From contig JAFYBN010000113.1 of the NCBI GenBank assembly GCA_017540175.1, forward strand, positions 1 through 64,000: a DNA stretch of 64,000 nucleotides, given 5' to 3'. Of the stretch, positions 55,167-59,284 are shown in pieces (positions within the stretch are counted from its first letter, which is position 1; each line of letters starts with the position of its first letter). The notes under the pieces are model-generated. The model had not been told where the DNA came from. It saw nothing but the letters and a program-made list of their open reading frames with translations, and ran no database searches. A program made the position numbers and the translations under genes. Source of the stretch: Clostridia bacterium. Lineage in GTDB: Bacteria > Bacillota > Clostridia > Oscillospirales > CAG-272.

Positions 55167-55218
55167 AAAAGAAAAGGGGCTCCCCCGCCCGAAGCGATGA
55201 ACCCCGGGCGGAGAAGCC
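55167..55218 (-). terminator. Rho-independent terminator of the glmM operon
   Basis: Read on the minus strand: a 14 bp stem (55205-55218 with 55178-55191, two G-T pairs), followed by CCTTTTCTTTT. Confidence 0.85.
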
Positions 55219-55242: not shown

Positions 55243-56589
55243 TTAAGCGATATGTCCCCTGTCTTTCAGCACGGCGAGCACCTCGTCGACGTATTTCCTG
55301 GACACAGCCTCGTCGTCGGCTTCGACCATGACGCGCAGAACGGGTTCGGTGCCGCTCGCCCGCACGAGGACGCGCCCTCTTTCACCGAGCTCATCCGTCA
55401 CCCGCGCAACTGCCGAGCGCACATCCGGGTCGTCCTGCGCCGCCGCCTTGCTCTTCACGCGGACGTTTTCGAGCGTCTGCGGATAGAAGACCACCGGGGC
55501 CGCCAGCTCGCTCAGGGGCTTTTCCTTCGCCAGCATGACCTCCATCATTTTGAGACTCGTCAGAATCCCGTCGCCCGTCGTCGCGTACTTCGAGAAGATC
55601 ACGTGCCCGGACTGCTCGCCGCCGAGGCGGTAGCCGTGCTCGGCCATGCACTCGTAGACGTATTTGTCGCCGACCTTCGTCTTCTCGTAGCGGATATCGA
55701 CCCTGTCGAGGGCTTTATACAGCCCGAAATTCGACATGATCGTCGTGACGACCGTGTTTTCGAGCAGCTTGCCCCGCTCCTTCATGTACAGGCCGTAAAT
55801 ATACAGAATGTGGTCGCCCGTGACGACGCCGCCCTTTTCGTCCACGCACAGGCACCGGTCGGCGTCCCCGTCGTAAGCGAAGCCGACGTCGAGCTGATTG
55901 TCGAGCACGAACTGCCGCAGCTTTTCAATGTGCGTCGAGCCGCAGTCCTCGTTGATGTTGCAGCCGTCCGGCTCGGCGTTGATGACGAAGGTCTTCGCCC
56001 CGAGCGCGTCGAACACGCCCTTCGCGATCATCCATGCCGCTCCGTTCGCCGCGTCGATGCCGACCCTCTTGTCCTTAAAGCTGAACTTGGACATGGAGAT
56101 CAGGTAGCCGATGTACCGGTTGCGCCCCGCGACGTAGTCCACCGTCCGTCCGATCTCCTGCCGCTCGGCGATGGGGATCTCGAAGCCGCCGTCGAGGTAT
56201 TCCTCCACCTTTTCGATCGTCTCCTCGTCCATCTTCTCGCCCGCAGCGTTCAGCAGCTTGATGCCGTTGTCGTAATAGGGATTGTGCGACGCGGAGATCA
56301 TGATCCCGCAGTCGAAATCGTCCACGCGCGCGATGTACGCGACGGAGGGCGTCGTCGTGACGTGCATGATGTACGCGTCCGCGCCGCTCGCCATGAGGCC
56401 CGTGCACAGCGCGTATTCGAACAGATAGCTCGACCGGCGCGTGTCCTTGCCGATCAGCGCCTTCGCCTTTCTGCCCCGCGCCGCGCCGTAGTACCAGCCG
56501 AGGAAGCGGCCGATCTTCACGGCGTGCTCGAAGGTGAGTTCACGGTTCGCCTCCCCGCGGAAGCCGTCCGTGCCGAAGTATTTGCCCAT
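55243..56589 (-). CDS. glmM: Phosphoglucosamine mutase
   Basis: 448 residues, normal length. Converts GlcN6P to GlcN1P in the cytoplasm for UDP-GlcNAc and cell-wall synthesis. KYFGTDGFRG at the N-terminus; phosphoserine loop MISASHNPYYDNG; metal-binding DGDADR; sugar-specificity GGEQSGHVIF; phosphate-binding RASGTEPVLRV. ATG 56589 after GGGGGA. It is second in an operon, 19 nt after the acyltransferase gene, and lies downstream of the glmS ribozyme at 57395-57525. Confidence 0.95.
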   Translation of the reverse strand: MGKYFGTDGFRGEANRELTFEHAVKIGRFLGWYYGAARGRKAKALIGKDTRRSSYLFEYALCTGLMASGADAYIMHVTTTPSVAYIARVDDFDCGIMISASHNPYYDNGIKLLNAAGEKMDEETIEKVEEYLDGGFEIPIAERQEIGRTVDYVAGRNRYIGYLISMSKFSFKDKRVGIDAANGAAWMIAKGVFDALGAKTFVINAEPDGCNINEDCGSTHIEKLRQFVLDNQLDVGFAYDGDADRCLCVDEKGGVVTGDHILYIYGLYMKERGKLLENTVVTTIMSNFGLYKALDRVDIRYEKTKVGDKYVYECMAEHGYRLGGEQSGHVIFSKYATTGDGILTSLKMMEVMLAKEKPLSELAAPVVFYPQTLENVRVKSKAAAQDDPDVRSAVARVTDELGERGRVLVRASGTEPVLRVMVEADDEAVSRKYVDEVLAVLKDRGHIA

Positions 56590-56608: not shown

Positions 56609-57271
56609 TTATGCTTCGATTTTCCGGACCACGCGGTCAGCCGATTTATAGATGCAGTTCTCCGGCACGACGCCGCGGACCGAGGAGGCGGGGTAAACCT
56701 GCGCGCGCCGCCCGATCACGGTGCCGGGATTGAGCACGGCGTTGCATCCGACTTCTACGTAATCGCCGACCATCGCGCCGCACTTTTTCCGTCCGGTCTC
56801 GACGGCGTCTTCCCCGTCCCGGATGACGACGGGCCGCTTGTCGCTCTTCACGTTCGAGGTGAGCGAACCCGCGCCCATGTGGCTGCGATAGCCGAGGATC
56901 GAGTCGCCGACGTAATTGTAATGGGGGGTCTGTACGTTGTCGAACAGGATCGCATTCTTGATTTCGACAGAATTGCCGACGACGCAGTCCGCGCCGACGA
57001 GCGCCGAGGAGCGGATGAACGCGCAGTGCCGCACCTCCGTCCGCGGGCCGATGACCGCGGGCGCGCCGATGTAGGCGGTCGGGGCGACGGCGGCGGTTTT
57101 GTGGATCCATACGCCGGGGGTCTTCTCCTCGTAATCGTCTCCGAGGGTCGGCCCGAGGGCGAGGATGAAATCGCGCACGCCGTCGAGCGCGTCCCACGGA
57201 TAGTCGAATCCGGCGAGGTATTCCCCGGCGAGGGAATGGGTGAGATCGAAAAGGTCGGTCGTTTTGAGCAT
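56609..57271 (-). CDS. Left-handed beta-helix acyltransferase (GlmU C-terminal-like)
   Basis: 220 residues. Hexapeptide repeats (AAVAPTAYIGAPAVIG; SSALVGADCVVGNSVEIKNA; GCNAVLNPGTVIGRRAQVYP) make a left-handed beta-helix. The text GVWIHKTAAVAPTA and FDNVQTPHYNYVGDSILG resembles the acetyltransferase half of GlmU, but no pyrophosphorylase half is present. It could acetylate GlcN1P made by GlmM. ATG 57271 follows GGGAGG. It is the first gene of the glmM operon. Confidence 0.85.
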   Translation of the reverse strand: MLKTTDLFDLTHSLAGEYLAGFDYPWDALDGVRDFILALGPTLGDDYEEKTPGVWIHKTAAVAPTAYIGAPAVIGPRTEVRHCAFIRSSALVGADCVVGNSVEIKNAILFDNVQTPHYNYVGDSILGYRSHMGAGSLTSNVKSDKRPVVIRDGEDAVETGRKKCGAMVGDYVEVGCNAVLNPGTVIGRRAQVYPASSVRGVVPENCIYKSADRVVRKIEA

Positions 57272-57394
57272 AGAAAAAAATCCTCCCGTGCAGTACAAAA
57301 TCATACGCGCGTCCCCGCCGTCCGATGCGCCGGTGCGGGACGGGACGCCGAAAACAGCGGCCTGTTTCAGCTGCTGTGCTTTTGTACGCGTGAA

Positions 57395-57525
57395 GAGAAT
57401 TTCTGTTGCAGTCTTGGATTCTGTTTTTTGTTTTTCTCTACTGACGACCGCGTCGGCCGTGGCAGCATCCGCCGAGTCTTTCGATCACTGCCAGCCTCGT
57501 CAACCCCATGGGTCCTGGCGCTCAC
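57395..57525 (-). ncRNA. glmS-class self-cleaving ribozyme (GlcN6P sensor)
   Basis: On the minus strand, in order: GTGA|GCGCCAG with predicted cleavage between A 57522 and G 57521; a short P2a-like hairpin GACCC-ATG-GGG; the conserved GTTGACGAGG (57495-57504); TGGCAG; ATCGAAAGACTCGGCGGATG (57466-57485); CTGCCA pairing with TGGCAG; CGG; then GAC/GTC pairings. AGAGAA further on pairs with TTCTCT near 57400. These are the core elements of the family, in the same spacing as known examples. It lies about 125 nt before the acyltransferase start, not before glmS. On GlcN6P binding the RNA should cut its own mRNA. Confidence 0.9.
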
Positions 57526-57596
57526 AGACGGCTGCATCCTCCCATGCCGCCGCCTGCTCCGGGCGGCTCTTTCCGGAGCCAAACCCGATTTCGTCC

Positions 57597-57625
57597 ATTA
57601 TATCGTTTCGGCGGACGGAATACAA
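57597..57625 (-). promoter_or_regulatory. Promoter of the glmM operon
   Basis: TTGTAT (57620-57625), 17 bp spacer, TATAAT (57597-57602). It starts a leader of about 315 nt that carries the ribozyme. The other part of the 612 bp gene-free stretch, 57626-57883, holds no recognised element except a possible truncated gene start at 57818 (GGGAGGATAATT then ATG). Confidence 0.8.
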
Positions 57626-57883: not shown

Positions 57884-58947
57884 TCAGCGGCTTGTGTAAT
57901 CGACGCACGCCTGAATGTAGGCGATGACGTTCTCCACCGGGACCTCGGGCTCGAGCAGGTGCGTGGGGCAGACGTACAGCCCGCCGTCCTTCCCGGCGAT
58001 ATCGAGGTTCTCAAACACGTTCTGCCGCACATCCTCCGGCGTCCCGAAGGGCATGACGGACTGCGTGCCGACGGTGCCGTGGAAGGAGAGCCGCTCGCCG
58101 AACCGGCAGTACACCTCACGAAAATCCATGCACTCCGGCTGCACGGGGTTGAGCACGTCCACGCCCGCTTCGATCAGATACGGGATCAGCTCCGTCACAT
58201 GACCGCAGGAATGGTAGAAGATGAGAATGTCCGGCTTGACGGCGCGCGCGGCGTCGATCACCCGTTTCAGCCGCGGCTTCAGCCATTCGCTGTAAAGCCC
58301 TCGCTCATCATGATCGTGCGCTGCATCCCCACGTCGTCCCCGAGGAACAAGGCGTCCGCCCCCGCCTTCGCGAAGGAGACGGCTCTTGTGACAGAAATCT
58401 CCGTGACGCGGTCGAGAAGCGCCTCAGCCATCGGATCCTCGCTGATCATATCGCACATGAGGTTCTCCATCCCGCGCATATACCACGCCGTTTCCCAGAT
58501 GGTGACCTCCATGTGCCCGATCGCCGCAAGGTCCGCCGAGTGGATCTCCTCCACATGCTTTTTCTGATCTTCGAGCGCTTCGCAGAAGACGGGAAAGGGA
58601 TAGTCGAGGATCTGCTCAACGGAGTCGAAATCCTCCATCGGGTGGTACATGTACGTCATGTGATACGCCGCCGCCGATCCGGGCTCGTGCGCGACGCCCC
58701 AGACATCGATATGAGTGCCCGGTTTGAACGTTTTGTCCCGATAATACCGCTCGAGAAACATCTCGCGCGGCGCGCTCTTCACCGGCTGGCCTCTCACGGA
58801 CGCCTCTCCCACCGGCACCCGGACGTCGTGCTCTTTGACGTACGCGTTGTACCGTTCGGCGAGAGAAGGACACATGCTGAAATTCACGGGCATATAGTCG
58901 TACCCGGTTTTGCGCGCGATGGAAAGATAGTTTTCACGGTTCGTCAC
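57884..58947 (-). pseudogene. Frameshifted UroD/MtaA-family gene
   Basis: From GTG 58947 (GGAGG 7 nt upstream) the frame runs to a TGA at 58279 (YMPVNFSMCPSLAERYNAY; GMQRTIMMSEG). The protein continues in another frame as LYSEWLKPRLKRVIDAARAV, IFYHSCGHVTELIP to 57884. A single missing G in the GAGGGC at about 58295 accounts for the break. Joined, it is about 354 residues. The first zinc-ligand segment is HSCGH; the C-terminal Cys of the MtaA type is not seen. Either a recent pseudogene or an assembly error. Confidence 0.75.
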
Positions 58948-59075
58948 GGCTCTGCCTCCGATGATTCCTTCGGTCCGATGCGCCAGACCTGTTTTTTCCG
59001 GATCTCCGTCATGATATAGGACGCGTCGGGATCGTCGTCGGTCGTGAATTCGACCGTGCCCCAGAGAAACGGACT
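58944..59075 (-). pseudogene. Possible 3' remnant of a gene before the UroD-family gene
   Basis: 43 residues (SPFLWGTVEFTTDDDPDASY, then IMTEIRKKQVWRIGP) with protein-like composition. They end at a TGA that overlaps the GTG start of the UroD-family gene (GTGA), as in a coupled operon. Upstream of 59075 the frame becomes low-complexity GC-rich DNA. No start codon is plausible. A remnant is the best reading. Confidence 0.4.
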
Positions 59076-59125
59076 GCCCCTCCCCCTCCCGCCGGACGGC
59101 GGACGGCAGGCGTGCCCCCCTCATG

Positions 59126-59154
59126 AATATAGCACAACCCTGTGGGAAAGTCAA
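59126..59154 (-). promoter_or_regulatory. Promoter of the frameshifted UroD-family gene
   Basis: TTGACT (59149-59154), 17 bp spacer, extended TGC, TATATT (59126-59131). Confidence 0.7.
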
Positions 59155-59212
59155 TGAAGAAGCGAAAGAATCAAAAAGGGCGTTTTCTCCGTGCCCAATG
59201 CCGATTCCGTGC

Positions 59213-59241
59213 TTGAAAAACCGGCGCGTTTCGTGTATAAT
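59213..59241 (+). promoter_or_regulatory. Promoter of the UroD-family gene pair
   Basis: TTGAAA (59213-59218), 17 bp spacer, TATAAT (59236-59241), divergent from the previous promoter. Confidence 0.8.
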
Positions 59242-59284
59242 GACAGAAAAACGGATCATCCGCAGTCAGCACGGGGAGGACATC

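Follow-up and report, generated by a model that had tools for sequence, protein, structure and literature searches.

The glmS ribozyme is the textbook case of a single RNA that regulates a single gene, which is why it is a drug target. A 2011 survey in RNA by McCown and others reportedly placed all but two glmS ribozymes in glmS mRNAs. The window, by which we mean the whole 64,000-nt stretch of Clostridia contig JAFYBN010000113.1 that was analysed, carries such an RNA in front of an acetyltransferase gene and glmM, and not in front of glmS, which raises the question of what the ribozyme controls there and in which direction.

Ribozyme and Operon of the Window

The original prediction of a glmS ribozyme was borne out by a covariance search. 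Scanning of the whole window (Rfam 15, cmscan) gave a single Rfam match over the gathering scores, RF00234 (glmS) at 57533–57384 on the minus strand, which covered the full model (1–167) with 58.3 bits against a cut-off of 37 (E = 7.3e-11). The motifs that had been named were all found at their positions, including the cleavage site A57522/G57521, predicted from the AGCGCC motif. The remaining core elements, GACGAGG at 57501–57495 (-), AUCGA and CGGCGGAUG, were all present, with ATCGA and CGGCGGATG lying between the P2 strands and P3 read in the RF00234 match. The A of GACGAGG, which we take to be A40, is kept. The acetyltransferase and GlmM predicted downstream agreed with the TIGR03992 and TIGR01455 matches, and no glmS follows; the range given for the locus (56609–57625) covered the ribozyme and the acetyltransferase and left out glmM (56589–55243). 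The features of the operon are:

57597..57625 (-): promoter-like pair TTGTAT (57625–57620), 17 nt, TATAAT (57602–57597), by eye
57384..57533 (-): predicted glmS-class self-cleaving ribozyme (RF00234 58.3 bits; model R1 141.9 bits, the window being one of three R1 training sequences)
57502..57514 (-): P1 hairpin GACCC / GGGTT, loop ATG (RF00234 alignment, pair counts)
57460..57493 (-): P2 with P2.1 and the CGGCGGATG segment, TGGCA 57493–57489 / TGCCA 57464–57460
57394..57439 (-): P4 with variant L4, AGAGAA 57439–57434 / TTCTCT 57399–57394
57281..57287 (-): Shine-Dalgarno-like GGGAGGA of the acetyltransferase, by eye
56609..57271 (-): stand-alone left-handed-beta-helix acetyltransferase, 220 aa (TIGR03992, C-terminal part)
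55243..56589 (-): GlmM phosphoglucosamine mutase, 448 aa (TIGR01455; Pfam PGM_PMM I–IV)
55178..55218 (-): terminator-like hairpin 3' of glmM, an 18-pair stem followed by a T-rich tail

By homology, the window RNA is a glmS-class ribozyme, with the core, cleavage site, P1–P4 layout and leader position of RF00234 and the glmS ribozyme of Bacillus subtilis. It differs from these in having a GAAUC-type L4 of 8–9 nt and not a GNRA tetraloop; in the window, CAG (57423–57421) and CTG (57411–57409) enclose the 9-nt loop AATCCAAGA. It differs from the B. subtilis ribozyme also in controlling acetyltransferase–glmM and not glmS, no full-length copy of which was found in the genome. In known glmS ribozymes the GNRA L4 is reported to dock into P1 (PMC11602151). 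Such docking is a peripheral feature that does not define the class; nevertheless, activity is not transferable from known ribozymes to that of the window, because the usual L4–P1 docking is absent.

The promoter-like pair has a weak -35 box and was not listed by a consensus scan. The ribozyme is separated by 112 nt from the acetyltransferase, whose start is likely ATG 57271, where the homologue in Succiniclasticum ruminis DSM 9236 (L101) begins to align, with a longer ORF possible from 57304. The protein matched the C-terminal part of TIGR03992 (Arch_glmU) with 146.3 bits, the cut-off of the full-length model being 292.1, and the closest solved structures in the PDB were 5Z09/2GGO (E about 5e-24). 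These are sugar-1-phosphate nucleotidylyltransferase/acetyltransferases, presumably of the ST0452 type, and it is their C-terminal acetyltransferase domain that matches; the window protein consists of the acetyltransferase only, lacks their nucleotidylyltransferase domain and is likely a GlcN-1-P N-acetyltransferase. GlmM scored 526.8 bits against the TIGR01455 equivalog model (cut-off 447.55) and belongs to that family. Gene maps and profile searches revealed no glmS or nagB in the operon. Hairpins after the ribozyme were rejected as part of the switch, the region 57383–57255 folding no better than shuffles (z 0.14). Upstream of the operon, a URO-D/MtaA-like methyltransferase (57884–59259, -) is split into ORFs 58279–59259 and 57884–58261, as read from the sequence a frameshift or a broken gene.

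GlcN6P Genes of the Window Genome

The assembly (3.9 Mb, 125 contigs, 3.5% contaminated) held one RF00234 match, the window ribozyme. At 93.5% completeness, it gave nothing over the cut-off of the GlmS model and zero matches to the NagB model. The earlier suggestion that the same signal controls glmS at another locus finds no support in these searches, which gave this single ribozyme and no full-length glmS. The best GlmS-model match was a 346-aa SIS-only protein (205.5 bits), which scored 192.2 bits against the NagB-II model (below its cut-off of 430) and resembles deaminase 8EOL; nagA had a match over cut-off. The GlcN6P of this organism would come from NagA salvage or from the SIS-only NagB-II-like enzyme. 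The canonical feedback circuit, a ribozyme on a GlcN6P-forming gene, was not found in the window operon, and we agree with the original prediction that the feedback logic looks odd, as the operon has no GlcN6P-forming gene.

Ribozymes in the Window's Own Family

RF00234, searched with strict filters, was present in 49 of 196 genomes of the family; a GlmS match over cut-off was present in 89 of the 196, a count for which incomplete bins account in part. Many family genomes encode SIS-only GlmS-like proteins of ~350 aa, instead of or besides GlmS. In tables joined by hand, 42 of the 49 ribozymes were followed by glmS on the same strand (a few cut by a contig end or split). Recurrent orders were acetyltransferase-glmM-ribozyme-glmS and glmM-acetyltransferase-ribozyme-glmS; in other stretches neither acetyltransferase nor glmM was seen near the ribozyme. 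These family operons keep the same genes and ribozyme class close together, as in the window, but their ribozyme lies between glmM and glmS and has no variant L4, whereas that of the window precedes the acetyltransferase. Within the window's genus, ribozymes were found in 2 of 25 genomes, the second (G196) having the acyl-glmM-ribozyme-glmS order.

Seven of the 49 had no glmS after them (the window, G000, and G002, G047, G055, G073, G120 and G190), and none of these seven genomes gave a GlmS match over cut-off. Four of them (G002, G047, G055 and G190) have it stranded on the 3' side of the acetyltransferase or glmM. The G047 copy (L052, 3601–3753) lies 3' to the acetyltransferase gene; its cleavage site is gone, GCAAAA standing in place of GCGCC, and its core reads GACGGGG, which we take to be an A40G change. 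It is apparently a decaying relic. A40G has been reported as deleterious (PMC11602151). The window and G073 have the ribozyme ahead of the acetyltransferase. In G120 the ribozyme stands before a nagB at the end of a contig, and another contig starts inside nagB and continues into the acetyltransferase; the two nagB pieces are likely the same gene. A P4 end without GNRA tetraloop is common to the window ribozyme and those of G073 and G120, and among the other family loci collected none contained the variant L4 pattern.

A Ribozyme Subclass With a Variant L4

A scan of genome_contigs with the pattern TCGGCGGATGN{30,60}GAATCN{3,6}CYGYAACAGA returned at least 117 stretches in which a GAAUC-type loop of 8–9 nt takes the place of GNRA; two of them, L070 and L160, were taken as the G120 and G073 contigs from their identical match places. 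Model R1, for which three sequences were used, was run on the window and 99 of the 117 listed loci and gave 100 matches of 86.8–147.9 bits, the top three being the training sequences and the other 97 scoring 86.8–132.4 bits. The window belongs to the subclass by its R1 score (141.9 bits, as a training member) and its GAATC L4.

Among 98 distinct subclass sequences, in an alignment fitted to the structure and with L4 columns selected by the scan pattern, 15 of 23 pairs had changed on both sides, including 5/5 of the P2 pairs. Pairing was found in 95.2% of cells, vs 33.5–52.6% when the alignment was slid, and the covariation score was 0.412, vs 0.198 for shuffles and a slid maximum of 0.107. P1, P2, P2.1 and P4 are thus kept by paired changes, which say little for P2.1 because it hardly varies. 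The variant-L4 ribozymes are a real RNA group.

As an independent check, R1 was run against 391 genomes of the class and matched in 89 of them (90 rows, strict filters). The four best scored 141.9 (the window), 127.6, 118.1 and 101.3 bits, followed by 80.6. Among the best 30 of the 90 rows, the variant L4 was present in 4/4 matches above 100 bits and in 0/26 at or below 80.6. The four head acyl-glmM (two, including the window), nagB and glmS, and 24 of the lower 26 precede glmS, the remaining two being L198 and L207. L198 (G492) has a canonical-L4 ribozyme (1640–1497, -) followed by an ORF (1487–348, -) for a 379-aa GlmS without glutaminase domain, possibly an ammonia-dependent GlcN6P synthase under ribozyme control. 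In L207 (G357), a glmS ribozyme at 1662–1496 (-) with 78.2 bits lies between a malQ-like gene and, on the opposite strand, a hydrolase-like gene (by eye), and the 3.2-kb stretch held none of glmS, nagB, glmM or acetyltransferase.

Gene Orders, Hosts and Origin

The first gene after the ribozyme among the 117 listed was nagB in 77, the acetyltransferase in 23, glmS in 10 and glmM in 6, and one stretch ended at a contig end 26 nt past the ribozyme. Nine-tenths (106/117) therefore head nagB, acetyltransferase or glmM, and the window arrangement is one member of a widespread ribozyme-headed set of these genes, which the prediction had missed. Counted with contig-cut stretches included, the orders were nagB-acyl-glmM (34), nagB alone (29, of which 11 have >3.3 kb downstream), acyl-nagB-glmM (11), nagB-acyl (10), glmS alone (10), acyl-glmM-nagB (3) and glmM-nagB-glmS (3), with others fewer. 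The variant precedes glmS in Oribacterium.

By eye, 86 of the 117 listed titles point to ruminants through the labels RUG or RGIG, the name of a ruminant host or organ, or the species epithet ruminis; RUG and RGIG were counted with the ruminant titles on the meaning we presume them to have. Succiniclasticum ruminis DSM 9236 (L101) is among the 117, with the order ribozyme-nagB-acetyltransferase-glmM. It shares the variant ribozyme with the window, with an acetyltransferase 68% and a GlmM 80% identical, but nagB comes first in its operon and is lacking in that of the window; it carries glmS at another place as well, and no ribozyme was seen next to that gene. Other titles name Coriobacteriaceae, Atopobiaceae, an actinobacterium and Sphaerochaetaceae. 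The full-length NagB from these non-Clostridiales titles (L093, L105, L127, L144 and L171; that of L118 is a contig-end piece and outside the comparison) was 85–88% identical to the Clostridiales reference, which suggests that the cassette was transferred between phyla, most of these being metagenome bins in which misbinning is possible.

In a tree of 78 acetyltransferases (midpoint root, long window branch, bootstrap not settled), the window was sister to all 60 subclass proteins, with G073 next, and 17 proteins from family glmS regions fell outside the window and the subclass. The window GlmM was 72–82% identical to near-full-length subclass GlmM and 42–62% to others of the family. From this tree and these identities, we regard the window as most likely an early branch of the operon type led by the ribozyme.

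glmS, nagB and nagA in Subclass Genomes

Fifty genomes, chosen by hand, were searched: 20 of the 23 with the acetyltransferase first, all 6 with glmM first, 20 of the 77 with nagB first and 4 of the 10 with glmS first, the last serving as control and leaving 46 with the ribozyme on nagB, acetyltransferase or glmM. With strict filters, 49 of the 50 (45/46) had a single ribozyme and G252 had two. Full-length glmS was found in 42 of the 50 and in 38 of the 46, where it closes the ribozyme operon in 5, has its own ribozyme in 1 and lies elsewhere without one found in 32. Replacement of GlmS by NagB in ribozyme–nagB genomes was accordingly rejected as a rule; NagB is no simple substitute, since 38/46 genomes keep full-length glmS.

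No nagA match at E < 1e-20 was found in 13 of the 46 genomes, and in 10 of these 13 the ribozyme-linked nagB was the only nagB found, which fits a synthetic NagB, as does the company of biosynthetic genes in which nagB occurs. The other 33 matched nagA with E of about 1e-50 or lower, and a catabolic NagB is possible there.

As in the window, nagB is absent from the operon in three of the 46, G219, G223 and G234, and full-length glmS was found neither in these three nor in the window genome. The ribozyme is on the acetyltransferase in all four, with glmM following in all but G234. Outside the operon, nagB occurs in G219 and G234 (70% and 89% identical to the cassette reference), and G223 has one that is 43% identical and on the same contig as a nagA. 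The chance of all three nagB-less operons falling within the 8 glmS-less genomes of the 46 is 0.004, with kinship ignored and n = 3; two of the 8, G218 and G228, carry glmS pieces. Lack of glmS explains nagB-less operons only in part, the window genome, G219, G223 and G234 being the cases that fit.

Direction of Control

We consider it rather probable that the variant ribozyme leads the acetyltransferase–glmM operon as an OFF switch, by which a cut at high GlcN6P would lower both genes, and that the window inherited this switch. We infer from homology that high GlcN6P would cause the ribozyme to cut the leader mRNA, and with it lower acetyltransferase and GlmM. In operons of nagB, acetyltransferase and glmM, sometimes ended by glmS, the same cut would act as product feedback on GlcN6P formation, NagB presumably aminating fructose-6-phosphate with ammonia to GlcN6P. 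Ammonia is high in the rumen, which would favour an aminating NagB. Negative feedback would be sensible in most subclass operons because a GlcN6P-forming gene (reverse nagB or glmS) is included. The window operon has no such gene, and all that the inherited switch would restrain there is the flow of GlcN6P into UDP-GlcNAc; such negative control of consumers alone is hard to justify in the window, G219, G223 and G234. Two further counts weigh against product feedback through NagB: the 29 listed stretches with nagB alone and the 33/46 genomes with a nagA match.

Predicted folds, with pseudoknots left out, were compared before and after cleavage. In the window leader, GGGAGGA (57287–57281) was mostly paired in both states and the accessibility of the ribosome site was unchanged. 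Over 93 of the 117 listed leaders (the rest were dropped because glmS came first, the start codon lay >160 nt off or the leader was too short), mean accessibility was 0.513 before and 0.516 after cleavage, rising by >0.1 in 5/93 and falling in 2/93. Unmasking of the ribosome site by cleavage is hence unsupported, and since predicted access is unaltered, the known OFF direction was kept and the logic read as inherited. Folded by simple prediction, the window leader pairs its ribosome site (57281–57287) with the P4 3' strand (57394–57408), which would exclude the folded ribozyme.

An opposite sign, in which GlcN6P-triggered cleavage raises nagB, acetyltransferase and glmM, for instance by stabilising the 5'-trimmed mRNA, would suit the consumer-only operons and, with a catabolic NagB, also nagB-acyl-glmM, where every enzyme would use GlcN6P or its product; ribozyme folding could moreover expose a ribosome site that otherwise pairs with P4. 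We nevertheless judge it unlikely, given the unchanged accessibility in the 93 leaders and given that the variant also heads glmS (10/117 listed), where an ON switch would mean runaway synthesis. Known cleavage products are, besides, degraded: in B. subtilis, RNase J1 is reported to degrade glmS mRNA after GlcN6P-induced cleavage (PMC7125110). An OFF switch is also favoured by the report that an A40 mutation there raised glmS mRNA >50-fold (PMC6171935). Just as improbable is a relic, a ribozyme left behind by the departure of glmS from the operon and under no selection here. Family ribozymes without glmS next (7/49, with 0/7 of their genomes giving a full-length glmS match) and the decayed G047 copy, with its GCAAAA and presumed A40G, speak for such a history. 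The window copy, itself one of the 100 subclass sequences compared, is however unchanged at all columns conserved in ≥97% of them, and lies ahead of the operon with a promoter-like site of its own, whereas loss of glmS from acyl-glmM-ribozyme-glmS leaves the ribozyme 3', as in G002, G047, G055 and G190; the 106/117 listed variants that head nagB, acetyltransferase or glmM argue against stranding as well. Least probable, and very much so, is a changed ligand or ligand independence, the altered periphery going with the sensing of another sugar phosphate. The L4 change does set the subclass apart (4/4 class-wide matches above 100 bits against 0/26 others, best 30 of 90), but it is limited to a peripheral docking loop, the core columns are standard, and the same variant stands before glmS in Oribacterium.

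Wider Meaning of a Probable Inherited OFF Switch

Judged by title and abstract opening, none of the papers listed in literature searches dealt with nagB or glmM under a glmS ribozyme; the two non-glmS exceptions of the 2011 survey may already include such a case. A broader reading, which we put forward tentatively and rate at somewhat under even, is that the variant ribozyme may act as a thermostat for GlcN6P in an amino-sugar pathway that needs no glutamine, with NagB fixing ammonia, GlmM and the stand-alone acetyltransferase. The cassette would have been exchanged among Bacillota, Actinomycetota and Spirochaetota of the ruminant gut, where ammonia is abundant, and its earliest-branching known form would be that of the window, governing the GlcN6P-using steps alone. 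The subclass often leaves glmS uncontrolled and sits on nagB, acetyltransferase or glmM, which would change the targets of GlcN6P in many gut bacteria, and it hints at cell-wall precursor synthesis fed by ammonia. Genomes with the ribozyme on consumers only pose a problem of the sign of regulation, and the variant L4 offers a natural test of replacing a ribozyme's docking loop. In G252 (Coriobacteriaceae RUG13402; L185/L105), two ribozymes occur in tandem, in the order ribozyme-glmS-ribozyme-nagB-acetyltransferase-glmM.
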